Positions 2,304-24,909 of a stretch of 25,226 nt of DNA are shown here, piece by piece. Source of the stretch: Chloroflexota bacterium (GTDB lineage: Bacteria; Chloroflexota; Anaerolineae; CG2-30-64-16); the NCBI GenBank assembly GCA_029555885.1, contig JAKPQT010000472.1:1-25226 (forward strand), given 5' to 3'. Position 1 is the first letter of the stretch. Every line of letters begins with the position of its first letter. Under the pieces are notes generated by a model. It was not told the origin of the DNA and made no database searches. It saw only the letters and a program-made list of their open reading frames with translations. The position numbers and the translations under genes are program-made.

Positions 2304-5261
2304 ATGGACCCAATCCTCTTCGTCAATCCCCCTAAGACCGTCCGCCCGATGGTGCGGTGGTGGTGGCCCGGGCTGGATGTGCAGGCTGAAGAGCTCGGCC
2401 GCGAGCTCGCCGAAATGGACCACAGCGGCATCGGCGGCGTCGAACTGCAGCCGTTCAGCATCGGCCTGCCTACGGGGTTGCAGAAGGCCGACCCGCGCTG
2501 GGCCGGCCGTGTCCACCGTTTCATGCAGCCCTACCACTACGAGATGATGCGGACAGTCATCGACGCGGCCCGCAGCCGGGGCATGTTCGTGGATATTACC
2601 CAGAACTCCGCCTGGCCGACCGGCGGTACGCACATCACGCTGGAGGATTCCCTCCAGACGCTGCTGATGACCACCGAGACCGTGCACGGGCCAAAGGCGT
2701 GGCAGGGCCGCGTGCCCCGCGTGCGCCCGCTGCGCCTCTACGGGTTCTTCCGCAACGTCGTGGGCCGCGTCGCAAAGGGCATGGATATGCTGGAATACAT
2801 CCCTGAGGACAAGCGGCTGCTGGCCGTGGTGGCCGGCCGCGCGACGGGCAAGCCGGGACATTTCAGCTCGTGGAAGGCCAAGGAGAGCACCCTGCTTGAC
2901 TTTGCCAGCATGATCGACCTGACCGGTCAGGTGGATGCCGAAGGGCGGCTAAGCTGGGATGTGCCCGCAGGCACGTGGCAGCTCTTCGCCGTCTACGAGG
3001 GCACTGCGGGCGCGATGGCGCTCCAGGATGCGCGCAGCGAACCGGGCAAGCGCGCACTGGTCGTCAATCACTTCGATGCGCAGGCGGAGCAGCGTCACCT
3101 GGACGCGTTCTTCGGCCCTGCGCACGCGCACTTCGGCGGCGACTTCGGCCGCACCTTCCGCGCGTTCTTCACCGATAGCTTCGAACTCATCAGCCCCATG
3201 CACTGGACGCGAGGCTTCATCGACGAGTTCCGGCGGCGGCGCGGCTATGACATCACCCCTTACCTGCCCGCAATGTATGTGCCACTGAAGGACGTCGGTT
3301 ACTACACCTACGGCAACGAAATCGGCCTGCCCAACTTCGACTTTGCGGGAGGGACAACCGATGCCGGCGCGCGCATGCGCTGGGACTTCCAGCGCACCCT
3401 GTCAGAGCTGTTCGTCGAGCAGTTCATCCGGGGCATGGCGGACTGGGCGCACGCCCGCGGCGTGCAGAGTCGCGTTCAGGGCTATGGCATGCTGGCCGAC
3501 CCGCTGGCGATGCTCGGCTACTCCGATATCCCCGAGACCGAGCAGCTTTACGGTGGGGGCGCGCTCAACTTCCTCAAGCTGGCCGGCGCGGCGGGCACGC
3601 TGTACGAGCGGCCCGTCGTCACGTCCGAGTCGCTCGTCTGGCAGGGCCGGGCCTACATGACCACGCCGCTGAAGTGGCGCGTGGGGCTCGACCGGCTGTA
3701 CGAGTCCGGCATCAACCAGGCCATCTATCACGGCTACCCGTACCATCACCCCGCGTTCCCGCATCCGGGCTACCACCCGTTCGCCTCGCCGTACATGGCG
3801 ATGATGAACTTCTCGTCGGACATGAGCAGCCAGGACCCGCTGCTGGCCGGGGCCGCGCCGGCGCTCAACGCCTATGCTGCGCGGGCCCAATATCTGCTCC
3901 AGCGTAGCCGGACGAGCACCCGCGTCGGCATCTTCTACCAGTTGTTCGACTATCCCAACGGCAACTACATCGAGGAGGAGCTGGTCGCGGGCGTGCTCGA
4001 CGAGCAGGACGCGCAACTGCCGAAGGCGGGCGGCATCAGCGGCCGGGTCATGCAGATGATCATGCCATCGGGCGGCGACGTGACCGGCGACCGCAAGTGG
4101 ATCCAGGATAGCGCCGCGCTGGCCGCGCACCTGGTCAGCCGCGGGCACTACCCCCTCTACTTCAACGAGGACCGCCTGCTCCAGGCTCATATCGAAGGCC
4201 ATGCGGTCATCATGGGCGAGGCGCGCTTCGAGGCGCTGATCCTGTTCCGGGAGACGAGCCTGACCGTCGAAGCCGCGACCAAGCTGGCCGAGCTGGCGGC
4301 TGCAGGCATCCCCGTGCTGTTCGTAGATGTCCGCCCCGACCGCAATCCCGGCTGGCACGACCACGCGGCGCGCGACCAGGCCGTGCGTGAAGCAGTCGGC
4401 GGCATCGGCGGCCCGCTATGCCACAGTTCGGACGACGTGGCAGCCGCGCTCGCCGCGGCGGGCGTGCAGGGGGAGGTACGTTATACGGAACCGCAGCCGC
4501 ACGTCGGGTTCATCCACAAGATCGACCGGGAGGACGGCACGGAGTACTTCTGGCTCCGTAACCGCCGCCGCGACGAGCGCGAGGTGGCGGTCACGCTGCC
4601 GGCCGCGGGCACGCCGGTTCTGCTCGACCTGTGGACGGGCAGCATGGCCGCGCTCGCGCATGAGGTGACGGCGGATGGTGTGAGGTTGACCCTGCGGCTG
4701 GCAGGTTACGAGTCTGTGGTGGTGATGCTGGCATCTGCTGCGACCGCGGCCGGGCTGCCCCAGGCGCAGCCCCCTGTCCTGCAGGCGGACCTCGAACCGG
4801 CTGTCACCGTCCAGGGTTTCGCGTTCACTGCGGACCAGCGCCTCGCCAACGGCACGCAGCGCCGCATCGAGCTGGACCTGCCGGAGCTGCGCGACTGGCG
4901 CGACGTGCTGGAGCTGGCGAGCCTGGGCGATCCGGGCACGTACCGCGCTACCTTCACGATGGGCCCGCTGGAGGCGGGACGGCGCTACTTCCTGCAGCTC
5001 GACCGGGTCTGCGACCGCGCGGACATCATGCTCAACGGCCGGGCCCTCGCGCCGCTGCTCGTGCTGCCCTGGCGCCTGGAGATTACCGGACTGTTGCGGG
5101 AAGGCGCGAATACCCTGAGCATCACCGTCACGCCCACCCTGCGCAACCAGCTCGTCGGCTATGCGGAGACCGGCAGCAAGGACCACCGGCAGTACAAGGG
5201 CGGCGTCAAGATGCCATCAGGGTTGATCGGTGCAGTCCAGGTGTGTGCGCTGCGCGGGTAG
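2304..5261 (+). CDS. GH106-like glycoside hydrolase (alpha-L-rhamnosidase family candidate)
   Basis: This 985-residue protein has the layout of GH106-type enzymes, which release terminal alpha-L-rhamnose. The opening RPMVRWWWPGLDV (14-26) and GIGGVELQPF (42-51) match the start of the catalytic barrel. FTDSFE (289-294) followed by WTRGFIDEFRRRRGYD is the family's acidic active-site block; E294 is a likely catalytic residue. DIPETEQLY (408-416) and TSESLVW (440-446) are further acidic segments typical of these barrels. Residues about 850-985 form a beta-sandwich resembling GH2 or carbohydrate-binding jelly rolls (YFLQLDRV, ADIMLNGRALAP, LREGANTLSITVTP). No signal peptide is present, so the enzyme is probably cytoplasmic and acts on imported oligosaccharides or glycosides. 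ATG 2304 has AAGGAG (2290-2295) 8 bases upstream. It converges with the minus-strand sugar locus across a repeat hairpin. Family fairly sure, substrate not. Confidence 0.85.
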   Translation: MDPILFVNPPKTVRPMVRWWWPGLDVQAEELGRELAEMDHSGIGGVELQPFSIGLPTGLQKADPRWAGRVHRFMQPYHYEMMRTVIDAARSRGMFVDITQNSAWPTGGTHITLEDSLQTLLMTTETVHGPKAWQGRVPRVRPLRLYGFFRNVVGRVAKGMDMLEYIPEDKRLLAVVAGRATGKPGHFSSWKAKESTLLDFASMIDLTGQVDAEGRLSWDVPAGTWQLFAVYEGTAGAMALQDARSEPGKRALVVNHFDAQAEQRHLDAFFGPAHAHFGGDFGRTFRAFFTDSFELISPMHWTRGFIDEFRRRRGYDITPYLPAMYVPLKDVGYYTYGNEIGLPNFDFAGGTTDAGARMRWDFQRTLSELFVEQFIRGMADWAHARGVQSRVQGYGMLADPLAMLGYSDIPETEQLYGGGALNFLKLAGAAGTLYERPVVTSESLVWQGRAYMTTPLKWRVGLDRLYESGINQAIYHGYPYHHPAFPHPGYHPFASPYMAMMNFSSDMSSQDPLLAGAAPALNAYAARAQYLLQRSRTSTRVGIFYQLFDYPNGNYIEEELVAGVLDEQDAQLPKAGGISGRVMQMIMPSGGDVTGDRKWIQDSAALAAHLVSRGHYPLYFNEDRLLQAHIEGHAVIMGEARFEALILFRETSLTVEAATKLAELAAAGIPVLFVDVRPDRNPGWHDHAARDQAVREAVGGIGGPLCHSSDDVAAALAAAGVQGEVRYTEPQPHVGFIHKIDREDGTEYFWLRNRRRDEREVAVTLPAAGTPVLLDLWTGSMAALAHEVTADGVRLTLRLAGYESVVVMLASAATAAGLPQAQPPVLQADLEPAVTVQGFAFTADQRLANGTQRRIELDLPELRDWRDVLELASLGDPGTYRATFTMGPLEAGRRYFLQLDRVCDRADIMLNGRALAPLLVLPWRLEITGLLREGANTLSITVTPTLRNQLVGYAETGSKDHRQYKGGVKMPSGLIGAVQVCALRG

Positions 5262-5272
5262 GCAAGCGGAAC

Positions 5273-5371
5273 AGAACGCGGATGACGCTGATGACAAAGA
5301 TGGACGCTGATTTTCTACGTAAGTCAAAAAAGATCAGCGTAAATCATGACGATCAGCGTTATCCGCGTTCT
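5273..5371. repeat. Imperfect inverted repeat of AACGC/GCTGAT type between convergent genes
   Basis: The left arm 5273-5314 starts AGAACGCGGATGACGCTGAT; the right arm 5328-5371 is its imperfect reverse complement, ending ATCCGCGTTCT. A 13-base loop separates them. It lies between the GH106-like gene (stop 5261) and the convergent minus-strand gene (stop 5392), where it could serve as a bidirectional transcription barrier. It belongs to the same family as the elements at 6359, 8740 and 18367. Confidence 0.85.
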
Positions 5372-5391
5372 ATTCAGCCGCAGCATACCGC

Positions 5392-6336
5392 TCAGCTTCG
5401 CAACTCTCGATACGCGCGCACCACAGCCGCCCATGCGGCGGCCGGATCCTCGCACGCCTCGTTCGTCCCCTCGCCGGCGCGGAAGCCCCACGTATAGAGC
5501 GCGTCCGGCGCTTCCGCCGCGATGGCCTGGGCGGCCTGCTCGATCTCGCCCTCGCGGCCCGCGGGCATGCGCCACGCCTGCAGCCACATCAGCGACCGCT
5601 TGCCGTAGCGCCGGCTCAATTCGACCGTTGCGCGTGTCTTCTCGCTGACCCAGGCCATATCCTGACCGAAGCACTCCCAATACGGGTCGGTCCCGAAGGT
5701 GTCGAGCGGTGCGATGGCCGCCGTCGCCTCCCACGCGGCCTCATCCGTCGGCATCACGCACGTCGCGGTCTCGAAACGCGTATCCAGCCGTTTGACGAAC
5801 GCGCTCATGCCCTCGACGTACGATGCGATGTTCGCCTGCCGGAACGCGTCGAGGTCATCCGCTGCAGCGTGGCGGAGGTCACCGCGGCCGCCGCGCTCGG
5901 CATAGCGCGCCCGGCAGTGCTCGCAGTAGCAGTCCTGCACGGTGGGCTCGTCCCAGAAGTACGCGTCGTAGCCCAGCCCCGCGCACATCTCGACCATCTC
6001 CTCCGCGCGGCGGCGCAGCGCCGGGTGGTTCATGCACCCTTCGCCCTTGCGCGACCCGTCGCGGCGCACCTGCCAGACATCGGGATTGTCGGTCAGCAGG
6101 CGACTCACGCGGCCCCCGCCGAACGCACACGCAAAGCCCCACAGGTTGGCGACGATGCGCAGCCCCAGGTCATGCGCGATGGCCGGCGCGCTGCGCACCT
6201 TGCCCGGGAAGATGTGGAAGTCGTTCTCCGCCAGTGTGATGAGTACCTCGTCGCACCCCATCTCGCGCATCGCGGCCAGGTCCGCGTGCAGATGCTCCGG
6301 CAGATACGCCCCATAATAAGCCATACCCAGCTTCAT
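5392..6336 (-). CDS. Putative TIM-barrel glycosidase-like protein with DEP and CxCxxC motifs
   Basis: This 314-residue protein has alternating strand/helix segments of a (beta/alpha)8 barrel: MKLGMAYYGAYLPEH at strand 1, CDEVLITLAEND (28-39) at strand 2, LRIVANLWGFAC at strand 3, YDAYFWDEPT (123-132) at strand 4. The WDEP acidic pair (D129, E130) sits where many retaining glycosidases carry the acid/base. It is followed by DCYCEHC (C136, C138, C141), a cysteine cluster seen in several uncharacterised glycosidase-like families of environmental bacteria. No signal peptide or TM segment, so cytoplasmic. I chose the second ATG (6336) because GGAGG lies 5 bases before it; the ATG at 6348 has no SD. 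It is the distal gene of the minus-strand block, after an M24 peptidase and a repeat. Glycosidase function is inference; the exact family is unknown to me. Confidence 0.8.
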   Translation of the reverse strand: MKLGMAYYGAYLPEHLHADLAAMREMGCDEVLITLAENDFHIFPGKVRSAPAIAHDLGLRIVANLWGFACAFGGGRVSRLLTDNPDVWQVRRDGSRKGEGCMNHPALRRRAEEMVEMCAGLGYDAYFWDEPTVQDCYCEHCRARYAERGGRGDLRHAAADDLDAFRQANIASYVEGMSAFVKRLDTRFETATCVMPTDEAAWEATAAIAPLDTFGTDPYWECFGQDMAWVSEKTRATVELSRRYGKRSLMWLQAWRMPAGREGEIEQAAQAIAAEAPDALYTWGFRAGEGTNEACEDPAAAWAAVVRAYRELRS

Positions 6337-6358
6337 GCCTGCCTCCATTGGGTGGGTG

Positions 6359-6486
6359 GAATAGAACGCTGATCAACGCTGATAGTCATGATTGACGCTG
6401 ATGTTTGGTCTGATATATAGAGAAAAATCAGCGCAGATCAGGGCCAAGCGAAGCTTGGCACATCAGCGTCATCAGCGTTCTATTCA
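6359..6486. repeat. Mosaic inverted repeat with nested GCCAAGC hairpin
   Basis: Left arm 6359-6402 begins GAATAGAACGCTGATCAACG; right arm 6427-6486 ends ATCAGCGTTCTATTCA, its imperfect complement. Within the right arm, GCCAAGC (6443-6449), GAA, GCTTGGC (6453-6459) form a perfect 7-bp hairpin. The same inner hairpin occurs at 8760-8776 and, degenerated, at 18393-18405. It sits between the M24 peptidase stop (6490) and the glycosidase-like gene start (6336). Confidence 0.88.
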
Positions 6487-6489
6487 CGC

Positions 6490-7758
6490 TCAAATCACGT
6501 GGAACGCGGTTTGGCGGCCGTGGATGAGGCGGCAGCCGGTGCGGGTGAAGACGACATCCTGTTCCATGCTGAGCCGCACTTCCTGGCCGTCCCATTCGGG
6601 GATAGGTCCGCTGACCGACAACTCCATCGTGAACGCGTTGTTGTAGCCCAGGGCCACGTCCCCGCGGCCGGGGTTGCGCTCCTGCTCCCACGGCAGGCCG
6701 ATCAACGGACCCGGCTCGTGCAGGTACAGGCCGAGCGAGTGCGAGTAGATGCGCGGGTTCGGGATGCCCTCGCGGCGGGCGCGCGCCAGGATCTTTGCCA
6801 GCAGCTCATCGCCCGTCAGACCGTGGCCGAACTCTGCCATGAAGATGTCCTGCAGCCGGTTGCCCTCCGCCAGCAGCGCGGCCAGCCCCGCGGGCGGTGC
6901 GCTCTCGCCGGGCCCCAGGATGTAGGCCCATTCCTGGTGGTCCGAGTTGAGCCGCAGATACTTGACGCCGACATCGCAGTGCACCAGGTCGCCGGGCCGG
7001 ATGATTTTGTCGTCGGGACCGTAGCGCTCGGTTGCGGCATTGCTGCGCCGGAGCGTGAAATACGGCTTGAAGGCCAGCTCCAGCCCCAGGTCCGCGGCAG
7101 TCTGCCAGTAGGCCCATTCGAGGTCCTCCGCGGTGGTCACACCCGGGATGAGCGTGGCACGGCTGTAGCAGCGCGCGATGATCGCGTGCGCGACCGCGGC
7201 CACGTGCTCGTACAGCGTGACCTCCTCCTCGGACAGCGTGCTGAGCCACGCGGTCGCCAGCGGCTCCGCGGACACGAGGCGGTCCACATATTTGGCCGGC
7301 AGGCGGTTCGTGAGCTGGGTGTACAGGTTGTGCGTGAGCCCGCTTGCCGCCCACTGCACTGGCCCGATGTTAATGCCGATGCGCTGCGGGTTGCGCTCCT
7401 GGATCGTGCGCAGCAGGATGGGCCACTGCTCGACCTCGAGCTGCCCGCGATAGGGCCGGTCATACAGGTCGTGCGTGTTCGTGCCGGAGATGTTGATCCG
7501 CTCGATCTGGTGCACGCCGTCCGGCCCCGGCCCGCGGTCGTAGAATACGATGACCTGCAGGATGGGGCACCAGGTGTCCATCGGGATGAGGGTGGTGAAG
7601 ACGGGGTCGAGGTTGTCCTCGTGGCAGAGGATCAGCCACATATCGATGCCCGACGCGGCCATCGCCGCAGGGAGCACGGTTTCGAGCCGCTGCTTGAGCA
7701 CGCGGTTGATGACCGCGGCGCGCTCACGTACCGGCAGCACGTGGATGGGATGAGCCAT
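6490..7758 (-). CDS. M24-family metallopeptidase (Xaa-Pro peptidase/creatinase fold)
   Basis: This 422-residue protein has an N-terminal creatinase-like domain (about 10-175) and a C-terminal pita-bread metallopeptidase domain (about 180-415). All five dinuclear-metal ligands expected for M24 peptidases can be placed: D262 (HCDVGV), D273 (NSDHQEW), H340 (YSHSLGLYLHEPGP), E379 (FTMEL) and E399 (SMEQDVVFT). Xaa-Pro peptidases remove the residue before proline from peptides in the cytoplasm; the fold also includes creatinase and other C-N hydrolases, so substrate is open. HSLGLYLHEPGP rather than GHGIGLEVHE places it in a divergent subgroup. Start ATG 7758 has AGGAGG 6 bases upstream. It lies among sugar-metabolism genes on the same strand, but repeats on both sides make strict operon membership uncertain. 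Confidence 0.9.
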   Translation of the reverse strand: MAHPIHVLPVRERAAVINRVLKQRLETVLPAAMAASGIDMWLILCHEDNLDPVFTTLIPMDTWCPILQVIVFYDRGPGPDGVHQIERINISGTNTHDLYDRPYRGQLEVEQWPILLRTIQERNPQRIGINIGPVQWAASGLTHNLYTQLTNRLPAKYVDRLVSAEPLATAWLSTLSEEEVTLYEHVAAVAHAIIARCYSRATLIPGVTTAEDLEWAYWQTAADLGLELAFKPYFTLRRSNAATERYGPDDKIIRPGDLVHCDVGVKYLRLNSDHQEWAYILGPGESAPPAGLAALLAEGNRLQDIFMAEFGHGLTGDELLAKILARARREGIPNPRIYSHSLGLYLHEPGPLIGLPWEQERNPGRGDVALGYNNAFTMELSVSGPIPEWDGQEVRLSMEQDVVFTRTGCRLIHGRQTAFHVI

Positions 7759-7775
7759 GATGCGCCTCCTGTTAA

Positions 7776-7830
7776 GTGACAGGATCGACGATACGAAAAC
7801 TAATCCTGAAGCATCCTGTCAATCCTGTCC
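7776..7830. repeat. ATCCTGTC-type intergenic repeat
   Basis: GACAGGAT at 7778-7785 is complementary to ATCCTGTC at 7813-7820, followed at once by another copy, AATCCTGTCC (7821-7830); AATCCTGAAGC sits between. The segment fills most of the gap between the methyltransferase stop (7836) and the M24 peptidase SD. It differs in sequence from the AACGCTGAT repeats but occupies the same position, directly behind a stop codon. Confidence 0.65.
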
Positions 7831-7835
7831 CAGCC

Positions 7836-8708
7836 TCACGCCTCTGCGACGTAGACGACCCACTCCGGCGAATCCTTCAGGGCGAGTTGATCCCACGCCG
7901 GGTGGACTGTGACCCTAGCAAAACCTGCCTCCGCGAGCATGGCCGTCATGGCCTCCACCGGATAGGCCTGGTCGGACAGGCCATAGGCCTGCAGCTCGCC
8001 GGTGTCGAGGTTGATGATGTAGAACCGCTCGACTGCGGCCTGCTGCTCCGAGTCCCAACGGCGTTCGCCCAGGTGCAAGTAGGGGAAGTCGCCCCACAGC
8101 CCGCCGCGGTCCGTGTACCACCAGTTGCTGTCCCGCTTGTCGAAGCGCCCGTCATCCAAGATTTCGAGCAGCAGCCGGCCGCCCGGCCGCAGCGCAGCGT
8201 GGATGCGGCGGAGCATGTCGCGCGATTCGTCCGGCGTCAATACAGTAAACTGCCCGTAGATGTAGATTGCGGCATTATAAGGCGGGGCGAAGTCCGCACT
8301 GCCGAAATCCACCGTCCGTACGTCGGCCTGGATGAACTCGCACGGCAGGCCCGCGCAGTGGCTTCGCGCGTAGCGAAGAGACGCCGGGCTGAAGTCGACG
8401 CCGGTCACGTTGATGCCGGCTCGCGCGAACTCGGCGGCATAGAGTCCCGGTCCGCACGTTACATCGAGCAGCCGGTCGCCGGGATGGAGGTTGAGCCAGT
8501 CGAGCATGACCTGCACCTGGCCGCGCACCTCCGGCACGGGGCGGCTGGCCGCGCCATGCGACTGGTCCAGGTGCTGGGCCAGCATCCGTTCGCTGAACGC
8601 AGGGTCATCCCACGGCAGGTTGACGCCGTGGACCCAGGGCACGGGCGGCTGGGGCCGGTCATAGATCGCACGGAGCGCGGCGGCGAGGCGGTCAGGGTCG
8701 GGTCCCAT
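7836..8708 (-). CDS. Class I SAM-dependent methyltransferase
   Basis: This 290-residue product has the Rossmann-like methyltransferase core: motif I LLDVTCGPGLYAAEFA (80-95) for SAM binding, motif II VTGVDFSPASLRYAR (101-115) with the ribose-binding acid, motif III EFIQADVRTVDF (124-135), and the post-I motif LRPGGRLLLEI. The C-terminal half adds beta strands, including NWWYTDRGGLWGDFPYLHLGERRW, that probably shape the substrate site. The target could be a small molecule, a sugar or a protein; sequence does not tell. Start ATG 8708 is chosen because AAGGAG lies 5 bases upstream; the open frame continues to 8807, but that part is read through an intergenic repeat and is almost certainly untranslated. 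Same strand as mtlD upstream and the M24 peptidase downstream. Confidence 0.9.
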   Translation of the reverse strand: MGPDPDRLAAALRAIYDRPQPPVPWVHGVNLPWDDPAFSERMLAQHLDQSHGAASRPVPEVRGQVQVMLDWLNLHPGDRLLDVTCGPGLYAAEFARAGINVTGVDFSPASLRYARSHCAGLPCEFIQADVRTVDFGSADFAPPYNAAIYIYGQFTVLTPDESRDMLRRIHAALRPGGRLLLEILDDGRFDKRDSNWWYTDRGGLWGDFPYLHLGERRWDSEQQAAVERFYIINLDTGELQAYGLSDQAYPVEAMTAMLAEAGFARVTVHPAWDQLALKDSPEWVVYVAEA

Positions 8709-8739
8709 AGTATCTCCTTGTTGAGTGGTTTCGAACGGA

Positions 8740-8870
8740 GAATAGAACGCTGATAACGTGCCAACCTTCGCTTGGCCCTGATGAGACTGATGAACGCTGA
8801 TTCTCATTAGAATAATAGGTCAAAAAGATCAGCGTAAATCATGATCATCAGCGTAAATCAGCGTTCTATC
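8740..8870. repeat. Mosaic inverted repeat overlapping the mtlD stop codon
   Basis: Left arm 8740-8801 begins GAATAGAACGCTGATAACG and includes a nested hairpin GCCAACC-TTC-GCTTGGC (8760-8776, one mismatch). Right arm 8828-8869 ends AAATCAGCGTTCTAT, complementary to the start of the left arm. The TAG stop of mtlD (8866-8868, minus strand) is the TAG inside the repeat's terminal GATAGAACGC. The methyltransferase SD lies just outside the other end. Confidence 0.88.
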
Positions 8871-10056
8871 CTTTCCTGCCCCGCAGAGCATTGTACTGCG
8901 CGACAACAAGGCGGTGGAGTTCCTCGCCCGGCTGGATGCCGCATACCTCTGCCAGCACGGTGTCCAGCCCCTGTTGGCGCAGCCGACCCTGGAGCTCCTG
9001 TGCGATGGGATCTGCCGGCGGGTCGAAGAGCAGCCCTGCTGCGATGCCCGTGGCGAGGTGGACGGGCACGACGCCCTGCGCCTGCGCGTTGCGCGCTGCG
9101 CCCACCAGCCGATCGCCAGGCGCCAGCTTGCGCAGCGGGTCGCGGCCCAGGCGCAGCGTCGTATCTCCCAGCGCGCGGTTGGCGAAGCGCGCAAGCAGGT
9201 CGTCGATATTGGCGAGCAGGCTGCCGGGCTCCGGGCGGTATTTGCGGGTCAACGCGAGCGCGGATTCCTCCATGGCGCCGCGCGCCTGGAAGTAAATCTC
9301 GTCGTCCGCCAGCGCTTCGTAGCCGTACTCATAGCCGCGCAGATGGCCGAGATAGGCCAGTACCGCATGGCCCGCGTTGTGAATGTAGAGCTTGCGGTCG
9401 GTGAAGAAGGCGAACGGGCTGTAGGGCGTCATGTGGACGATGGGCGGCGGCGGGCCGATGAACCCCTCCCGGTCCACGGGCAGTTCCTTATACGGCTCGA
9501 CCAGGATGAGGCTGGGGTCCGCCGCGCGCAGCTCGGGCGTTAATGGCGGAACCATGCGCGCGATGACCGTATCCACGAAACCGATGTGCGCAGCGGCATA
9601 GCCGTGCAGCCCTGCGGGCAGGTGGGCAAGCACCATCTCGCGAAAGATGGCTGCGGCCCCGTGGAGATTCTCGCACAGGATGAGGTTGAAGGGCGCGGTG
9701 ATGCCCAGCTCCGCCCGCCGCGCGATGCCCGCCGCGACCGGCGCGGCGATGTGTTTCAGCACCCCAGCGCCGACCGCGGTCGCGCCGATCTCCGCCCGGG
9801 CGAGCGCGTCCGCGACCGCCGCCGTGTCGGCGGAGTGCAGCGCGCGCACCGGCCCGACCGTGACCTCCTCGGTCCGCTCGTTGGTGACCAGCCGGATGGT
9901 GTACGCTCCGCGGCCGTTCAGCGCGTCCAGCAGCGTCCGGTCCACGTCCACAAAGGTGACGCCGTAGCCCGACTCGCTGAAGAGCTGGCCCATGAAACCC
10001 CGTCCGATGTTCCCCGCACCAAAAATGATAGATTGTTTCATCAATTGTCCGCTCAC
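8866..10056 (-). CDS. mtlD: Mannitol-1-phosphate 5-dehydrogenase (MtlD family)
   Basis: This 396-residue protein aligns end to end with the family (E. coli MtlD is 382 aa). It has the NAD-binding start IIFGAGNIGRGFMGQL (10-25), PFNLILCENLHGAA (122-135), AAHIGFVDTVIARMVPP (155-171), and the polyol dehydrogenase catalytic block RKLYIHNAGHAVLAYLG with K222, N227 and H230. PLRKLAPGDRLVG near the C-terminus is also family-typical. MtlD oxidises mannitol 1-phosphate to fructose 6-phosphate with NAD+ in the cytoplasm. GTG 10056 is taken as start because GGAGGAGG lies 7 bases upstream; ATG 10041 aligns with the E. coli start and is the alternative. No mannitol PTS is in the window, so the phosphorylated polyol must come from another transporter or kinase. 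It follows a large dehydrogenase with a 50-base gap, probably one transcript. Confidence 0.94.
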   Translation of the reverse strand: MSGQLMKQSIIFGAGNIGRGFMGQLFSESGYGVTFVDVDRTLLDALNGRGAYTIRLVTNERTEEVTVGPVRALHSADTAAVADALARAEIGATAVGAGVLKHIAAPVAAGIARRAELGITAPFNLILCENLHGAAAIFREMVLAHLPAGLHGYAAAHIGFVDTVIARMVPPLTPELRAADPSLILVEPYKELPVDREGFIGPPPPIVHMTPYSPFAFFTDRKLYIHNAGHAVLAYLGHLRGYEYGYEALADDEIYFQARGAMEESALALTRKYRPEPGSLLANIDDLLARFANRALGDTTLRLGRDPLRKLAPGDRLVGAARNAQAQGVVPVHLATGIAAGLLFDPPADPIAQELQGRLRQQGLDTVLAEVCGIQPGEELHRLVVAQYNALRGRKG

Positions 10057-10090
10057 CCGTTCGCCTCCTCCGCGCAGCGCAAGAGGAACT

Positions 10091-10121
10091 GGTTACTTAT
10101 TACTCTTTACGCGTTACTCGT
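10091..10121. repeat. Short TTACTCGT-type repeat overlapping a stop codon
   Basis: Loose copies of one unit (GGTTACTTATTACTC, TTTACGCGTTACTCGT) lie at the 3' end of the dehydrogenase. They resemble the right arm of the hairpin at 20391-20448 (TTACTCGTTACCCGTGACTC). The stop TAA (10107-10109, minus strand) and the last codons GTSNA are encoded by this segment, so it has become part of the gene. Confidence 0.6.
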
Positions 10122-11861
10122 CCCGTACACATCCCCTGCGTACCGCCTGAGGAATTCTGCCTCCGCGGCGCGCGTCCACTGGCCCTGGCTGTCGAGCAGG
10201 TCATGTACCGCGGGCACGATCCCCTTCAGGTCGGCCAGTGCGGTCAGCGGGAAGGCAGCGGCCTGGGGATAGATGACCATCTTGCCGGGGAACCGCCCTT
10301 CCATCAGCCCCTGCATCCCGTCGCGCGCTGCGTCCAGCCCGCCGATGGCCGCGACCGCGTTGGCTGTCGAGAGATGGCCCGCGGCCACGCGTTCCAGCAC
10401 CGCGGCCTGATCGTGGATCGTAGAGCCGGCGGAGCCGGTCATCTGCATGCCGCCGAGATAGACGTTCGAGAGGTCGAGCTGCGCCACGGTGCCGCGTGCC
10501 AGCCCACCGAACACGACGAGCAGCCCGTGGGGCGCGAGGTGTTGCGCGGCGCTCTCCACTGCGGCCACGTTGGCGACGACAACCACGACATCATCGAAAC
10601 CGCAACCCTCGTGTGCAGCCACCAGCGCGGCCTCATGCTCCTCCGGTGTCATCAGCTTCGGGTTGACGACCGTCAGCTCGATGCCGCGGCGCTCGGCCAG
10701 CGGGCCGAAGTCCGCGACCAGTTCCGGGTTGCGCACCAGGTTGGTCTCCGAGACGATAATGCGCCGGGGGCCCTGGGGCATCTCGAGCAGTCGCTGCAGG
10801 TGCATCCGGCCCATCGGCCCGCCCCCGCCGACGATCCACGCGACCCCGCCGGGCACGACCTCCGTCCGGTTACGCAATGCGCCGCCTGCGACGGCGCCGC
10901 TGCCATACGCTGCGCTGAGGTCCGGCCCGCGCGTCCCGACGTACACAACGGCGTCATAGTGCACGCGGCCCACGTCTACGGCCACGGGCCGGCCCAACGG
11001 CCGCTCGCCCACGAGGTTGACCAGTCCGCCGCTCGCGATGACCGCAGGCAGCCGGTCGAGCACCTCCGGCGTGGGATCCAGGACGATGATGTCGTCGAAC
11101 CCGCCCGACGCCAGCTCCTGCGCCAGCGCCGTGTACCCCTCCGGCGGAACTCCGTCGCGGCGGATAACCTCCGGCCAGGCGATCTGCGTCAGCAGGCTCT
11201 CCGGCACATCGGTCGCCACAACGTGTTGCGGCAGGCCGTGGTGGAACGCCCCGCCGAGCGTGTACTCGCCACCCAACCCCGGCCGCCCGACGATCCAGGT
11301 CACACCGTCCTTCTTGATATGCAGCCGCCGCCGCGGGACAAACGCGGCCACGACGCACGCCCACGGCTCCGTCAACGCCACCTCCGCATACCCCATGTCG
11401 CCGGGGACCGGAATCGCATAGCACCCCTCGTCGCCGTCCAGCGCGGCAGGGCCGAGCAGGTTGTACTGCGATAGCCCGCCATGAAACACATAGCCGTACG
11501 CCAGGTTGCGCCCCCGGTAGTAGATGTCTGCCTGCATCGCAAACCGCTGGCCCGGCGCGAAGGTGTCGCGCCACGCCTCCCCCACCTCGACCACGGTCAG
11601 TGCGACCTCGTGCCCCTGCACGATGGGCCGCTCAGCCAGGTTGCGGCCGTACAGCCGGGGATGGCTGCCGCCCTGCCGCAGGATCTTGACGTCGGAGTAG
11701 CACAGCCCCACGGCATCGGAACGGACGAGGATCTGGTCGGGCGCGGGGTGCGGCACCGGCCAGGTCTCCGGCTGGCCGTTGCGGCCCAGGTTCTCCAGCC
11801 CCGCGCCGTACAGGGGCCACGCCAGCATGGTATCGGGAATGCGAATGGGTTGGGGAGTCAC
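10107..11861 (-). CDS. Large MDR-superfamily (zinc alcohol dehydrogenase-like) oxidoreductase with two Rossmann-like segments
   Basis: Medium-chain dehydrogenases are normally about 350 residues; this one is 584. Numbering below counts from the upstream TTG codon at 11873. The GroES-like catalytic part (about 45-175) has C58 (GLCYSD), H88-E89 (VQGHEVALTVVEVG) and E169 (LTEPWACV), which fit catalytic zinc ligands, but no four-cysteine structural zinc lobe. A first nucleotide-binding-like segment follows (WIVGRPGLGGEYTLGGAF, 193-210), then a second, more canonical one (WIVGGGGPMGRMHLQRLLE, 346-364) running to about 540. The PMGRMHLQR signature recalls L-sorbose-1-phosphate reductase and related sugar-phosphate dehydrogenases. 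With mtlD downstream, oxidation or reduction of a sugar (alcohol) phosphate is a reasonable inference. GTG 11861 is chosen because GGAG lies 6 bases upstream; TTG 11873 has no clear SD. It is the first gene of the minus-strand block. Confidence 0.85.
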   Translation of the reverse strand: MTPQPIRIPDTMLAWPLYGAGLENLGRNGQPETWPVPHPAPDQILVRSDAVGLCYSDVKILRQGGSHPRLYGRNLAERPIVQGHEVALTVVEVGEAWRDTFAPGQRFAMQADIYYRGRNLAYGYVFHGGLSQYNLLGPAALDGDEGCYAIPVPGDMGYAEVALTEPWACVVAAFVPRRRLHIKKDGVTWIVGRPGLGGEYTLGGAFHHGLPQHVVATDVPESLLTQIAWPEVIRRDGVPPEGYTALAQELASGGFDDIIVLDPTPEVLDRLPAVIASGGLVNLVGERPLGRPVAVDVGRVHYDAVVYVGTRGPDLSAAYGSGAVAGGALRNRTEVVPGGVAWIVGGGGPMGRMHLQRLLEMPQGPRRIIVSETNLVRNPELVADFGPLAERRGIELTVVNPKLMTPEEHEAALVAAHEGCGFDDVVVVVANVAAVESAAQHLAPHGLLVVFGGLARGTVAQLDLSNVYLGGMQMTGSAGSTIHDQAAVLERVAAGHLSTANAVAAIGGLDAARDGMQGLMEGRFPGKMVIYPQAAAFPLTALADLKGIVPAVHDLLDSQGQWTRAAEAEFLRRYAGDVYGTSNA

Positions 11862-11909
11862 GCGATGCTCCAATCCAGGTGATGTTGTAATGGCCGGCCA
11901 AACCGCGTG

Positions 11910-11938
11910 ATGATACTGCCAAATCGTTTTTTACTCAA
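11910..11938 (-). promoter_or_regulatory. Sigma70-type promoter of the minus-strand sugar locus
   Basis: On the minus strand, TTGAGT (11938-11933) and TATCAT (11915-11910) are separated by 17 bases, placing the transcription start near 11903, about 42 bases before GTG 11861. It stands back-to-back with the promoter at 11949-11977. Confidence 0.7.
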
Positions 11939-11948
11939 CTTGAGGCTA

Positions 11949-11977
11949 TTGACGCGCCGGTGTGCAGATGCTAGAAT
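11949..11977 (+). promoter_or_regulatory. Strong sigma70-type promoter for the hydrolase-ppc unit
   Basis: TTGACG (11949-11954), a 17-base spacer and TAGAAT (11972-11977) preceded by TGC (extended -10) make a near-consensus promoter 41 bases upstream of GTG 12018. Its -35 is only 10 bases from the -35 of the opposing promoter, so a regulator bound here would affect both. Confidence 0.8.
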
Positions 11978-12017
11978 CAACGCAGTGTCTCAGTCACTCT
12001 TTCCAAAGGAGGACACC

Positions 12018-13256
12018 GTGAGCAAGTTTCTGCGCATCGTCCTATTGTTGACGGTCATTGCCAGCGGAACGCTCATCGCATCGCCCGCGCGGGCAGACGC
12101 GCTGCCGGTCCCCGGACCGTGCATCGAAGGGGCGCCGATCGACGGCGCGCGCACCCTCTACTGCGTCCCGACCTCCGGGTGGAACGGCGACCTCGTCGTC
12201 TACGGCCACGGTTATGTCGCGTTCAACGCGCCGCTCGACTTCTACAACCTCACTATGCCGGACGGCGGATATCTGCCCGCCGTCGTGCAGCAGCTTGGCT
12301 ATGCCTTTGCCACCACGAGCTACCGCCGCAACGGGCTGGCCTTCCTGGAGGGCGTCCAGGATGTCGCCAACCTGACTGCCTCCTTCCCGACTGTGACCGG
12401 GCTGACGCCGCAGCATACGTACATTGTCGGCCCATCTGAGGGCGGCATCATCACCGCCCTGTCTATCGAGCGTAACCCGACACTCTATACGGGCGGTCTC
12501 TCGCTCTGCGGTCCGGTCGGTGACTTCCGCAAGCAGATCGACTACTGGGGTGATTTCCGCACGCTGTTCGATTACTTCTTCCCGGGCGTGCTGCCGGGCA
12601 ACACCATTGACATCTCGTCCGAGTTGATTGCCGGCTGGGATGGCTACTACTCGGCGGTCGTAGCCCAGGCGCTTGCAGCTAACCCGGCTGCTGCCGCGCA
12701 GCTGATTCGCACGTCGGGCGCGTCGGTCGACCGGCGCAACCTCGCCAACACGACCGGCCAGACAACGCTCGGCCTGCTCTGGTACAATGTCTTTGCGACT
12801 GAGGACGGCCAGGCGCAGCTCAACGGCAACCCGTTCGATAACCTGACGCGCGTCTATCGCGGATCGCTCAACGATGCGGCGCTGAACGCAGGCGTTGCGC
12901 GGTATGCAGCGGATTCGACCGCGCTCGCGAGCATCCCACCGTACAACACGACCGGCCAGGTCACCCGGCCGCTGGTCACGCTGCACACAACCGGCGACGA
13001 AATCATTCCGTACTGGCATCAGAAGCTCTATCGCCAGAAGCTGCTCGCCAACGGCGTGAGCGGCGTCTTACAGATTCCGGTCAACCGCTACGGGCACTGC
13101 AACTTCACCACCGAGGAAGTCCTCAGCGCGTTCAGCCTGCTGGTCATCCAGGCCACCGGCGCGCCGACCATCGAGATCCCGGGCTTCAATCTGGCCGGCA
13201 AGCGGGCCGAGCTGGACCAGGCACGCCAGGAAGCTGACCTGTCGGAACTGAGGTAA
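12018..13256 (+). CDS. Secreted alpha/beta-hydrolase
   Basis: This 412-residue protein starts with a clear signal peptide: basic N-terminus (SKFLR), hydrophobic core LLLTVIASGTLIA, and a cleavage site after ASPARA (about residue 26). The mature part has the alpha/beta-hydrolase triad: nucleophile S140 in IVGPSEGGI (GxSxG elbow), D327 in HTTGDEIIP, and H360 in YGHCNF. HGYV (64-67) is the oxyanion-side HG motif. Such enzymes cleave esters, lactones or peptides outside the cytoplasm; GPSEGG is a pattern shared with secreted esterase- and peptidase-like groups, so substrate is open. GTG 12018 is preceded by AAAGGAGG at 5 bases, an excellent SD, and by a strong promoter. Only 9 bases separate its stop from ppc, so the two are probably cotranscribed although unrelated in role. 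Confidence 0.9.
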   Translation: MSKFLRIVLLLTVIASGTLIASPARADALPVPGPCIEGAPIDGARTLYCVPTSGWNGDLVVYGHGYVAFNAPLDFYNLTMPDGGYLPAVVQQLGYAFATTSYRRNGLAFLEGVQDVANLTASFPTVTGLTPQHTYIVGPSEGGIITALSIERNPTLYTGGLSLCGPVGDFRKQIDYWGDFRTLFDYFFPGVLPGNTIDISSELIAGWDGYYSAVVAQALAANPAAAAQLIRTSGASVDRRNLANTTGQTTLGLLWYNVFATEDGQAQLNGNPFDNLTRVYRGSLNDAALNAGVARYAADSTALASIPPYNTTGQVTRPLVTLHTTGDEIIPYWHQKLYRQKLLANGVSGVLQIPVNRYGHCNFTTEEVLSAFSLLVIQATGAPTIEIPGFNLAGKRAELDQARQEADLSELR

Positions 13257-13265
13257 CCTTACATC

Positions 13266-16079
<2,814 letters not shown>

Positions 16080-16428
16080 GAATAGGGGTGGTGCAAGAAG
16101 GCCAGGTCCGCAGAGGGCATAGATGTAAGAATCAGCGGTCATCCCCGGCAGCCTGCTCGTCGCCCTCCCACACCGGGCGACCGCGGTCGCAGCAACCGTG
16201 TTGCCGCGCCACGCTGCCAGATCGGTCTCCCCGACTGATAACTCACCGGCGCAGGGCGGTTTCGTAGTCGTTGCCTAACAACACGGTCGCCGCAGTTCTT
16301 GCTCCCAGTTGGAATGAACGGAACAGACAGAACGACCTTTATATGGTACAAGTATGACACTATCGCTGCACCAGCCAGTCGAACTTCGTTCGGGTCAGCA
16401 AGCGCGACTACACCAAGGAGACAAAACG
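16080..16428. other. 349-base gene-free region with a 14-bp palindrome
   Basis: No convincing gene is seen between ppc and the diiron protein. It holds a perfect 14-base palindrome GCGACCGCGGTCGC at 16177-16190, a possible operator or chance GC-rich symmetry, and an AT-richer stretch at about 16337-16362 (CTTTATATGGTACAAGTATG) that may contain the promoter of the next gene, though no -35/-10 pair is convincing. It is the longest untranslated stretch in the window. Confidence 0.5.
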
Positions 16429-17853
16429 ATGGTCGTCCCGACTACATCCCCAGGACTCGATCCGAGCATGGACTACGACATGATCGATTCGGTCAAGCAA
16501 GACCACGAACATCCCAGGATCAAGGGCCTCGCGGTGCGGCGCCGTGACCTCAGCGAGACGTTGAGTAGCGCGGATGGCACTTATCCCTGGCTGCGCTCCA
16601 AGGAGAACGTGGTCTACCTGACCCGGCTGGTCTCGCTGATGTTCGGTCTGGCCCGCTTGCAGGCCGGTTGGATACCGAACTGCCCAAGCTACGATCTCAA
16701 AACTGAGATTCCAGCGCGTCTCTATGAGGATGTGCGCCACGTCATCCGGCTGCGCGAGCGCCTGGCGCAGTTACCCGGCGGGCGCGACCGGATCGACCCG
16801 GACCCCGAACTGCAATCCTTCCTGGATGCCCTGGGCCGGGCCGGCGACCATCACCAATTCCTGGCAGGGCTCTATCTCGAAGTCAAGCGCAGCCTGCTGG
16901 CGACACTCGAAGATTTCGCGCGGGCGAGCGACCCGTTATACGACGCCCCGACGATCTACGAGCTGCGGGGCATCATTCCGGAGCTGCGCGACCAAATCGA
17001 TTGGGCCAACGGCATGCTCCTGGAGAGCCGGCTCGCCCTGGACACGGCGCGTAAGGTCGAGGCCTGGCGCGCTTATGTGCGCGCGCTGCTGGCTCAGATA
17101 GGCGGCATCCTGGGCAACACCCCCGCACCGGAAAGCGGTATGCCATCGAGCCCGGTCGCAAACCCGCTGGGACCGGCGCCCGAAAAGTTCCAGGGTGATC
17201 CGCGCATGCAGTACATCGACCACTTCCCGATGGACCGCAGCGAGGATCCGGTTAACCTGACGCTGCGCGAAATCGTGTACCACAATGCAACCGAATGGCA
17301 GGTGGTGGACCAGATGGGCGTCATCTTCTATGCGGTCAAGGGTCTGCCGCTGGAGTTTTTCCACGACCTGGCGCGGCACATGTGGGACGAGGCACGGCAC
17401 AGCCTGATGGGTATGCGCCGGCTGCGCGAGTTTGGCTACGACCCGTTCCGCGATTTCAAGTGGCCCTATTTCACGCAGCGCGCGGACGCGATCAAGGATT
17501 GGTACGGCGGCCTGACGATGGTGGGTGAGGCGTGCAGCTTCACGCGCAAGCACGGCAGCATCGAGCCGTTCTACCACTTTGGTGATCCGCTCAGCGCACA
17601 GCAAAGTGAAATCGACTGCGCGGACGAGCGGCTCCACGTCACTTTTGGCCGCAAGTGGCTGCCTGTGCTGGCTGCAGGCAGCGGCGACGAACGCCCGCTG
17701 CCCGTGCTCGTGCGTGAACTGCGGCAAACGAACCTGGCAAGGCGCGGCGACGAGTTGGGCGAGCTATCGGAGGAAGCCAAGCGTGAGCTGGCTAAAAGCG
17801 CGGTGGCCTTCTGCACCAGCATAGAATTCTCGTTGGACTTCACGGTTTATTAG
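16429..17853 (+). CDS. Putative diiron ferritin-like protein
   Basis: This 474-residue, soluble, strongly helical protein carries the metal-ligand pattern of diiron four-helix bundles in its C-terminal half: NATEWQ (E289, or E281 one turn earlier) on helix A, HMWDEARHS (E321, H324) on helix B, MVGEACSF (E367) on helix C and CADERLHVTFG (E400, H403) on helix D. The spacing E...ExxH...E...ExxH is that of ferritin-like oxygenases and oxidases rather than of a storage ferritin. The N-terminal half is also helical (YLEVKRSLLATLEDFARASD, ELRGIIPELRDQIDWA) and could be a ligand-poor extra bundle. ATG 16429 is preceded by AAGGAG at 8 bases; the open frame reaches back to 16354 without an SD. An Fe-S protein gene follows 29 bases later, suggesting an electron-supply partner. 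Reaction unknown. Confidence 0.82.
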   Translation: MVVPTTSPGLDPSMDYDMIDSVKQDHEHPRIKGLAVRRRDLSETLSSADGTYPWLRSKENVVYLTRLVSLMFGLARLQAGWIPNCPSYDLKTEIPARLYEDVRHVIRLRERLAQLPGGRDRIDPDPELQSFLDALGRAGDHHQFLAGLYLEVKRSLLATLEDFARASDPLYDAPTIYELRGIIPELRDQIDWANGMLLESRLALDTARKVEAWRAYVRALLAQIGGILGNTPAPESGMPSSPVANPLGPAPEKFQGDPRMQYIDHFPMDRSEDPVNLTLREIVYHNATEWQVVDQMGVIFYAVKGLPLEFFHDLARHMWDEARHSLMGMRRLREFGYDPFRDFKWPYFTQRADAIKDWYGGLTMVGEACSFTRKHGSIEPFYHFGDPLSAQQSEIDCADERLHVTFGRKWLPVLAAGSGDERPLPVLVRELRQTNLARRGDELGELSEEAKRELAKSAVAFCTSIEFSLDFTVY

Positions 17854-17882
17854 CCGGCCGCGTCTGCGAGGAGCGTGGGACA

Positions 17883-18347
17883 GTGGATAACCAACCGATG
17901 GACGAGGCCGAAGCACGGCAGCAGCCCGGTGTCGCGCGCGTGTATCGCAACGAACAGATCGCGGTGACCTGGGAGCCGGCGCTGTGCATTCATGTGGGCC
18001 ACTGCTTCCGGGACCTCCCCGAGGTCTTCCAACCGCAGAACCGGCCATGGGTGAATATCAATGGTGCAACGGCCAATCGGATTGCCGAGCAGGTCCGGAA
18101 GTGCCCGTCGGGCGCGCTGCGATTCGTGCGGCTTGACGGTGCTGCAGCGGAACCGCCACCGTCAGAGGTCACGATCGAAGTGCGGCCGAACGGCCCGCTG
18201 TTGGTCAAGGGCACCGTGCACATCCGCGGAGCAGACGGCCAGCTTATACGGGAGATCACGCAGTGCGCGCTCTGTCGCTGCGGCCATTCCGAAAACAAAC
18301 CGTTCTGCGACGCCACCCATCGCCGGATCGGCTTCCGCGCGCCGTAA
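17883..18347 (+). CDS. Fe-S protein: divergent 4Fe-4S (Fer4_19-type) domain fused to a CDGSH domain
   Basis: This 154-residue protein has two iron-sulfur modules. Residues about 20-82 match the divergent single-cluster ferredoxin type: C35 and C41 (ALCIHVGHCFRDLPEVF), PWVNINGA, and C74 (VRKCPSGALRF). Residues about 105-154 match the CDGSH family that binds a 2Fe-2S cluster through three Cys and one His: C131, C133, C142, H146 in CRCGHSENKPFCDATH. CDGSH clusters are redox-active and can be transferred. GTG 17883 is preceded by AGGAG at 9 bases, and the gene starts 29 bases after the diiron protein, almost certainly in the same transcript. The natural reading is an electron donor or cluster-delivery partner for the diiron protein; this is inference from context. 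A repeat hairpin follows 20 bases after the stop. Confidence 0.92.
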   Translation: MDNQPMDEAEARQQPGVARVYRNEQIAVTWEPALCIHVGHCFRDLPEVFQPQNRPWVNINGATANRIAEQVRKCPSGALRFVRLDGAAAEPPPSEVTIEVRPNGPLLVKGTVHIRGADGQLIREITQCALCRCGHSENKPFCDATHRRIGFRAP

Positions 18348-18366
18348 AGGTTCGGGGTAGGCGGAG

Positions 18367-18430
18367 GAATAGAACGCTGCTGGCGCTGATGTGCCAAGCT
18401 CCGCTCAATCAGCGTCAGCAGCGTTCTGTT
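18367..18430. repeat. Short AACGCTG-type inverted repeat between convergent genes
   Basis: Arms 18371-18390 (AGAACGCTGCTGGCGCTGAT) and 18408-18427 are complementary at 19 of 20 positions. The loop begins GTGCCAAGCTCCGCT, a degenerate copy of the nested hairpin seen at 6443 and 8760. It separates the Fe-S protein (stop 18347) from the convergent lipoprotein gene (stop 18450). Confidence 0.88.
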
Positions 18431-20373: not shown

Positions 20374-20390
20374 CAGCACCTCACGGAATG

Positions 20391-20448
20391 AGTAATGAGT
20401 CACGGGTAACGAGTAATTACTTTTACTCGTTACCCGTGACTCGTTACT
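20391..20448. repeat. 26-bp near-perfect inverted repeat overlapping the mrfA stop codon
   Basis: Arm 20391-20416 (AGTAATGAGTCACGGGTAAC...) and arm 20423-20448 are complementary at 25 of 26 positions with a 6-base loop. The TAA stop of the helicase gene (20444-20446, minus strand) is inside the right arm. It fills the gap between the helicase and the protease gene and would form a very stable stem in the shared transcript. Confidence 0.92.
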
Positions 20449-24837: not shown

Positions 24838-24909
24838 TGGCGACGCTCAGACTCGAACTGAGGACCCAGCGATTATGAGCCGCTTGCTCTGCCACTGAGC
24901 TACGTCGCC
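24838..24909 (-). tRNA. tRNA-Met (anticodon CAU), probably elongator
   Basis: The minus strand folds as a complete cloverleaf: acceptor GGCGACG/CGTCGCC (7 bp), D-stem GCTC/GAGC with loop AGTGGCA, anticodon stem AGCGG/TCGCT with loop CTCATAA (anticodon CAU), a 5-base variable loop GGGTC, and T-stem CTCAG/CTGAG with loop TTCGAGT. The discriminator is A. The CCA end is not encoded (genomic CCT follows), so it must be added after transcription. The anticodon stem lacks the three consecutive G-C pairs of initiator tRNA, so it is elongator Met, or possibly the lysidine-modified Ile tRNA that also has a CAU anticodon. Confidence 0.95.

Follow-up and report, generated by a model that had tools for sequence, protein, structure and literature searches.

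The window analysed here, a stretch of 25,226 bases from a Chloroflexota bacterium (contig JAKPQT010000472.1), holds four imperfect palindromes, E1 to E4, that belong to a real repeat family of a known general kind. The family is a multi-copy unit with conserved borders, present at some sites and absent from orthologous ones, which lies at gene 3′ ends, supplies TAG stop codons and, in two genomes, shows pairing between the two arms of single copies. On balance we lean towards the view that the elements are small non-coding palindromic repeats resembling repetitive extragenic palindromic (REP) sequences, enterobacterial repetitive intergenic consensus (ERIC) sequences and miniature inverted-repeat transposable elements (MITEs), gained and lost as units, moved in trans and placed at the 3′ ends of genes.

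Four copies of one palindromic unit

A sequence-only reading of the window had located four dispersed palindromic elements, and we found all four where it had placed them, with the following limits from a covariance model built partly from these same elements.

E1, 5272..5372, minus strand: full-length palindromic element, nested hairpin absent, with ACGCGGAT as its outermost words.
E2, 6362..6482, plus strand: full-length palindromic element with perfect nested hairpin; the orthologous junction in the relative G003 lacks the element.
Nested hairpin of E2, 6443..6459, plus strand: GCCAAGC-GAA-GCTTGGC, perfect.
E3, 8743..8868, minus strand: full-length palindromic element with nested hairpin; G003 keeps a right-end relic only.
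Nested hairpin of E3, 8760..8776, minus strand: one mismatch.
E4, 18370..18428, minus strand: internally shortened element, flanked by two convergent genes; retains half of the nested hairpin.
Nested hairpin remnant in E4, 18393..18405, minus strand: one half left.

Each element is an imperfect palindrome by its RNA fold z score (−10.6 for E1, −9.5 for E2, −6.6 for E3 and −8.6 for E4), with none of 200 shuffles folding as well in any case. The ends are inverted copies of TAGAACGC, one end of E1 and one of E4 reading CAGAACGC, and the arms are built of ACGCTGAT words. The arms had been described as made of ACGCTGAT/ATCAGCGT units, and 15 of the 16 such sites in the window do lie within the four elements. 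Aligned in a single orientation, the elements run from border through two words, a TCATGATT-like stretch, a third word and a variable A+T-rich apex to the complementary arm. The outer words, read by eye, are 10 nt apart in one arm and 9 nt in the other in E2, E3 and the G003 elements on C36, C406, C145 and C82, and 9 nt apart in both arms of E1 and of certain other copies. E1, too, belongs fully to the family; its outermost words contain GCGGAT.

E2 and E3 are reverse complements of each other, with border, word order and nested hairpin in common over about 120 nt. Because they are homologous along their length once one is reversed, they are two copies of a single unit rather than independent palindromes. 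In E4 the centre is missing, together with half of the nested hairpin. By the model limits the elements measure 59–126 nt in the window and 38–137 nt in G003, where one is shorter than 40 nt.

Copies in relatives and vacant orthologous sites

A scan for AGAACGCTGATNNACGCTGAT over 84,980 species genomes gave 88 stretches. Five of ten scan-hit genomes had a phosphoenolpyruvate carboxylase match; that of Chloroflexi bacterium ADurb.Bin325 (Chloroflexota, unclassified; G003) was 90% identical to the protein of the window, the others at most 47%. In G003, a pattern of border plus word matched 18 times, compared with 0 matches for the reversed control. The family was searched with a covariance model from 11 elements, which found at least 43 matches in G003 at E ≤ 0.1, corresponding to at least 24 places (at least 22 at E ≤ 0.01), most on both strands; these are lower bounds because 150 of about 2,150 first-look candidates were scored.

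Matches at E ≤ 0.01 occur in seven of the ten genomes of G003's family, G003 included. With both strands counted, there are 91 in G015, at least 40 in G003, 24 in G013, 12 each in G017 and G018, 8 in G019 and 5 in G016; G011, G012 and G014 had no match at this cut-off. The covariance-model search thus agrees with the expectation of a dispersed, multi-copy family, some relatives holding tens of copies in a genome. Genomes differ in the word that they favour, as judged from at most four elements per genome other than G003: it is ACGCTGAT in G003, ACGCAGAT in G015, G018 and G019 (the last two also hold some ACGCTGAT) and ACGCGGAT in G017, while G013 has both ACGCTGAT and ACGCAGAT and G016 mixes CACGGAT, ACACAGAT and ACGCGGAT.

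Contig C333 of G003 is orthologous to window positions 4755–9027 and so permits a comparison at three sites, E1, E2 and E3. At the E2 junction, G003 has two genes about 20 bases apart and no element. At the E1 site it has an unrelated stretch, again with no element, and at the E3 site about 24 nt resemble the right end, including the TAG stop codon, the remainder being gone. Absence at E1 and E2 and decay at E3 support the mobile unit that the sequence-only reading had suggested.

Placement at gene 3′ ends

Gene positions came from a simple codon-based caller trained on the loci of each genome. All four elements of the window are intergenic with respect to the predicted genes, except that E3 extends over one stop codon. 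We assembled 72 elements: 4 from the window, 26 from G003, 27 from G015 (from 20 regions, out of 91 two-strand matches), 11 from G013 and 4 from G018. Of these, 41 lie in co-directional spacers, 18 in convergent and 3 in divergent ones, and 6 at an edge; 4 lie inside a predicted gene, in keeping with the prediction that copies would be almost all intergenic. The excess of convergent over divergent spacers has a one-sided binomial probability of 0.0007; among the remaining spacers of 40 nt or more at these loci, 13 are convergent and 6 divergent. In the 41 co-directional spacers, the upstream stop codon is the nearer one to the element 32 times.

Elements and stop codons are closely apposed in the window's family: of 80 neighbouring stops, 54 fall in the interval that runs from 12 nt beyond the element edge to 14 nt within it. 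A peak of 12 stops coincides with the three letters that open the element, which read TAG every time, and a further 7 are TGA codons ending at element position 11 or 14. In the window, the mannitol dehydrogenase-like gene that ends at 8866 takes its stop from the terminal TAG of E3 (8866–8868, minus strand).

Pairing between arms

If the arms of a copy have changed together, they should match each other better than they match the arms of other copies. Within each genome, we re-paired the left arm of every copy with a right arm taken from another copy (2,000 shuffles). Within-copy arm matches numbered 219 of 264 in 22 copies of G003, compared with 204.0 ± 3.6 after re-pairing, and 280 of 324 in 27 copies of G015, compared with 259.5 ± 5.2; 0 of 2,000 shuffles did as well in either genome. 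In the 4 nt outside the border, no match beyond chance was seen in any of the five genome sets. The G003 figure covers 22 of 26 elements, with L104, L127, L131 and L176 omitted for tandem arms, half elements or a damaged end. At L104 (C37:2581-2803), three tandem one-sided arms each begin with AATAGAACGC, and one short opposite arm closes the array.

A hairpin nested in one arm

The sequence-only reading had reported a nested hairpin that is perfect in E2, has one mismatch in E3 and is half lost in E4, exactly as we find it. It had also put the hairpin at the same place in all three. The arm is indeed the same in E2, E3 and E4 once they are co-oriented, and ATCAGG precedes the hairpin in both E2 and E3; the distance to the border, however, differs, with two words outside the hairpin in E2 and E4 and one word plus a little more in E3. 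As read, the E2 and E3 hairpins lie in opposite arms because E3 is the reverse complement of E2. The hairpin sits in the arm with 9-nt spacing.

We searched four genomes with the query TGCCAACCTTCGGTTGGC, allowing up to three mismatches. G003 gave 12 rows, compared with 3 control rows; the other three genomes gave 3 to 5 matches, no better than their controls (3 to 4). The 12 rows correspond to 11 places. Five are within element arms (C5, C82, C105, C345 and C383, of which C105 and C383 are half elements), three are in a different palindrome (CTCCTGACGTGCGAACC-TTC-GGTTCGCACGTCAGGAG and variants; C175, C78 and C117) and three are in neither. This second palindrome, CCCTCTCCTGACG...CGTCAGGAGAGGG and variants at the corresponding loci L134, L138 and L141, is centred on a CC-NNN-GG hairpin of the same kind, in which GCGAACC/GGTTCGC replaces GCCAACC/GGTTGGC.

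Together with E2 and E3, the five G003 copies make seven full nested hairpins within elements, all preceded by ATCAGG. Outside the hairpin there are two words in E2 and C383, one word plus ACGT or similar in E3, C82, C105 and C345, and one word in C5. One stem pair covaries (G-C, C-G and T-A, with E3 as a mismatched intermediate), another is A-T or G-T, and five are invariant. The covariation score of the stem, calculated without the half hairpin of E4, is 0.181, compared with 0.087 ± 0.040 in shuffles, of which 29 of 500 reach it; the share of paired cells is 97.6%, reached by 66 of 500. The compensatory change that had been looked for is therefore real at one pair and statistically modest. 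Read in a single direction, the loop is GAA or GCA in six copies and TTC in C105, so one loop is inverted, and in C105 it is enclosed by a perfect stem. The inverted loop points to template switching as much as to selection.

Other nested units occur, namely a GGTCGGTCTCCGACC/GGTCGGAGACC pair on C52 of G003 and a CCTTCGGCAGGCTCAGGACAAGG unit on C416 of G013, which suggests that the palindrome can host different kinds of hairpin. The nested hairpin itself may be a second small hairpin unit, carried in one arm by one subfamily.

A proposed mobile unit and its rivals

The account that we favour would take the following form. The repeat would be about 40–170 bp of iterated words (ACGCTGAT and variants, 9–10 nt apart) between inverted TAGAACGC...GCGTTCTA ends, gained and lost whole, and in all likelihood mobilised in trans. 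Judging from the predicted genes, insertion at a 3′ end does little harm, and the element's TAG or TGA can serve as the stop codon. The element would probably be transcribed together with the upstream gene and would then form a long hairpin at the 3′ end of the mRNA, or at both ends when it lies between convergent genes. Pairing of the arms might be kept up by template switching during replication, by selection, or by both.

Several observations weigh against this account. First, the sequence adjoining E2 also differs at the vacant G003 site, so that no target-site duplication can be read there. Most copies have TA at both ends, but this TA is part of the palindrome itself. Second, G003 holds tandem one-sided arms and two half elements besides whole units. 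Third, arm matches show no significant excess in three of the sets: the window (n = 4), G013 (n = 11) and G018 (n = 4). Fourth, no transposase was tied to the element ends, no genome-wide scan for insertion sequences with these ends having been run. Fifth, loci from other taxa look different: 9 are convergent, 18 divergent, 56 co-directional (the upstream stop closer in 29), 1 inside a gene and 31 at an edge, a count that omits six G003 loci, Streptomyces L033 and viral loci and sets the 31 edge clusters aside. As far as we have looked, the 3′ preference thus belongs to the window's family. Finally, the gene caller is simple and the relatives are fragmented assemblies.

The best placed of the rivals, which we still judge unlikely, holds that the palindromes were never moved: replication errors would make them grow and persist in place, with slippage adding words, template switching at the hairpin copying one arm onto the other and flipping loops, and recombination between copies homogenising the word in each genome. 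Word arrays at near-constant spacing, the tandem one-sided arms, paired changes in single copies, a nested hairpin at a slightly varying number of words from the border and the inverted loop of C105 within its perfect stem are all consistent with growth in place, and template switching is reported to give compensatory changes and loop inversions (PMC8794818, PMC8604942). Growth in place nevertheless leaves the conserved border TAGAACGC unexplained, and the likeness of E2 and E3 over some 120 nt at two loci needs copying between loci.

Less likely again is a functional RNA or DNA structure selected at gene 3′ ends, such as a bidirectional transcription end, an RNase barrier or a stabiliser of mRNA. 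The way in which elements hug stop codons would suit such a role, as would the predominance of convergent over divergent spacers and the covariation of the arms. What argues against it is that elements are absent or decayed at orthologous junctions of a relative, that three of the ten family genomes have no match, that other taxa show no 3′ preference and that no terminator-like site lies at any element. Between 5200 and 18600 there is one such site, at 9730, with 5.9 expected from shuffles.

Candidates of a narrower kind were also rejected. An intrinsic terminator, a G+C-rich hairpin with a run of T after it, fails for want of a terminator-like site at any element, and a known RNA family for want of an Rfam match at gathering score in the elements; the sole Rfam match in the window is a tRNA gene at 24838–24909 on the minus strand. 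Insertion into the TA of a stop codon would leave TAA or TAG on the far side, which in the cases read by eye continues as TAT, CTATC or other letters. Carriage by plasmids was rejected as well: six records gave short matches to the E2 region, with a best coverage of 27% and E values from 0.03 to 5.

The word beyond the family

A pattern of two neighbouring words, ACGCDGATN{1,2}ACGCDGAT, occurs in 69 of 400 evenly drawn Chloroflexota genomes, with 833 matches compared with 6 control matches; 15 of these genomes have more than 10 matches, G137 largely through one tandem array. It is present in 46 of 247 Bacteroidota (4 control matches), three of which, including the genome chosen as centre, exceed 10 matches, and in 14 of 149 Actinomycetota, never more than twice per genome (1 control match). 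Among the 32 genomes that gave scan loci, which are hence selected, maximum counts are 197 in Anaerolineae, 60 in Armatimonadota, 41 in Paludibacter, 35 in Acidobacteriota and 21 in Edwardsbacteria, with 2 control matches overall.

Clusters of words have two arms in all 3 cases in the window, in 6 of 7 in G003 and in 25 of 28 in G015, where the share is biased upward because the loci were picked with the palindromic model. Elsewhere two arms were found in 2 of 61 clusters in S014_14, 1 of 11 in S014_12, 0 of 9 in Paludibacter STB_57 and 6 of 35 in other taxa, by a strict definition that misses E4 and degenerate second arms. The two-armed architecture is typical of the window's family and rare elsewhere; in other phyla the word has expanded patchily, mostly as one-sided arms and without a preference for 3′ ends. 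Given these one-sided arms and the lack of a 3′ preference, we do not claim that the word in other phyla marks the same element. A wider reading, which we offer tentatively and think doubtful, is that the window shows the local form of a cross-phylum class of repeats, ACGC(T/A/G)GAT every 9–10 nt and often bordered by TAGAACGC, which may have spread to up to about 200 pattern matches per genome through an undescribed mobilising machine, drifted in concert into dialects and become a two-armed, hairpin-hosting palindrome in one Chloroflexota family.

The spacing of words bears on a further alternative, that the arrays are sites for a putative DNA-binding protein, with words about one helical turn apart and the palindrome doubling the array. 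In 82 scan loci outside G003, word spacings are 10 (38 pairs), 20 (34), 23 (18), 30 (8) and 9 nt (4) and a few others, after removal of the 86 pairs demanded by the scan pattern, which requires one pair at 10 nt. This distribution speaks for protein sites, but spacing is mostly 9 nt in the window's family (57 pairs, compared with 7 at 10 nt) and 9 nt in all 16 listed pairs of the Bacteroidota genome G634, and the distribution among genomes is patchy; we consider the idea improbable.

In G001 (S014_14), long mosaic spacers such as L026, L045 and L087 join several hairpin repeats to one-sided ACGCTGAT arms, and one such mosaic stretch matches dozens of places in that genome.

Relation to known repeats

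GTAG-tagged REPs and the bacterial interspersed mosaic elements built from them are the closest in habit. REPs are described as intergenic palindromes mostly between convergent and co-directional genes, downstream of coding regions (PMC3733652); in the two species plotted there, most convergent REPs have both 3′ ends within less than 20 bp, and a TAG stop codon is often supplied by the GTAG end. The window's family, and it alone among the sets compared here, shares the intergenic position, the nearness to 3′ ends and the scarcity of divergent spacers, its ends also give TAG stops, and both groups have alternative complementary letters in their stems. By contrast, GTAG REPs measure 20–40 bp, carry an unpaired GTAG at one end and often have a REP-associated tyrosine transposase (RAYT) (PMC3733652, in part), whereas the elements described here are mostly longer (59–126 nt in the window), as a rule have (A)TAG at both ends, consist of 9–10-nt words and show no link to a RAYT. 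A G precedes TAG at 0 of 52 ends (the 4 window elements and 22 of the 26 in G003).

The nested hairpin recalls CGTC-tagged REPs, which likewise have no dedicated transposase (PMC3733652). CGTC stands one base past the stem in three of seven copies, where it can belong to the word itself (GCGTCATC). The stem of 7 bp and loop of 3 nt differ from the 8–9 bp and 4–5 nt of CGTC REPs (PMC3733652, in part), so the hairpin falls outside that class in stem, loop and tag.

Terminal inverted repeats and presence or absence at orthologous sites place the elements near MITEs of the TA type. ERIC, also known as IRU or RU-1, is an imperfect palindrome. According to PMC2229807 and PMC2759123, this repeat of 127 bp occurs in multiple intergenic copies, has TA at either end and is in some cases fused to the 3′ end of a gene; no iterated word is reported for it in the passages used here. 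The family described here is alike in these positions and resembles ERIC in size and TA ends. The sequence of ERIC, compared by inspection and not by alignment, and its host group are different. RUP and Correia/NEMIS MITEs also have inverted ends with TA, are small and are held to be mobile in trans (PMC2229807, in part). RUP ends resemble those of IS630-Spn1 (PMC2229807); no genome-wide search for such a partner of the present family was made.

Of the REP/MITE-type mobile unit that the sequence-only reading had suggested, the dispersed, multi-copy, intergenic character and the absence or decay at orthologous sites have held up; the RAYT-like partner has not. A search for the Y1 transposase domain (Y1_Tnp) at E ≤ 0.001 gave 22 matches in 12 genomes. 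It found Y1 in five of the seven element-bearing family genomes (G003 1, at the cut-off of 23 bits; G016 1; G017 4; G018 2; G019 2) and in two of the three element-free ones (G011 1, below the cut-off; G012 4; none in G014), as well as in both S014 genomes. No Y1 match was found in the element-bearing G013 and G015, the latter having the most copies. Twenty of the matches had a locus, and in none of these did the retrieved flanks, up to 1.5 kb long, contain an element; the genomes are drafts, in which absence is no proof. Movement by a RAYT, which REP-like placement downstream of coding regions, TAG stops (PMC3733652, in part) and the presence of Y1 in five of seven genomes might have favoured, is therefore rejected as the least probable of the readings considered, because Y1 and the elements follow no common pattern among the family genomes, no Y1 locus holds an element, GTAG is missing from the ends and most elements exceed the REP size.

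A search of the literature by exact strings of the word, its variants and other repeats found no paper, and the titles and abstract openings that keyword searches gave showed no description of this family, within a coverage that excludes most subscription journals and all of bioRxiv. Small palindromic repeats are a recurring and poorly explained component of bacterial genomes. The present family, without GTAG tag or RAYT link, still shows the REP habit of settling at 3′ ends and supplying stop codons, and its word recurs across phyla with different favoured letters. It thus offers a testable case for asking how such repeats spread in the absence of a known dedicated transposase, and whether paired changes in DNA palindromes come from selection or from template switching.

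Gene surroundings and other repeats of the window

E1 separates a GH106-like gene from a convergent gene that has no Pfam match. The genes on either side of E2 are co-directional, and one is M24 peptidase-like. E3 lies between a methyltransferase gene and the mannitol dehydrogenase-like gene, and E4 between a CDGSH/Fer4 gene and a convergent gene that likewise has no Pfam match.

Four further intergenic or palindromic stretches were seen. At 386–458, between two genes, is a near-perfect palindrome (GCTCACGCAGAGGCGCAAAGG...; fold z −11.1) that matches several places in G003 and more in G013. About 60 nt of intergenic sequence at 1435–1496 match dozens of G003 places, mostly at 79–91%, with no simple palindrome apparent by eye. 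An imperfect repeat of AGGAT/ATCCTGTCAATCCTGTC words occupies 7776–7829 in a gap between two genes. A second near-perfect palindrome, of GAGTAA/GAGTCACGGGTAACGAGTAA words (fold z −11.9), lies at 20387–20452, and similar CTCGTTACTCATTACTC words come after a half element in L131.

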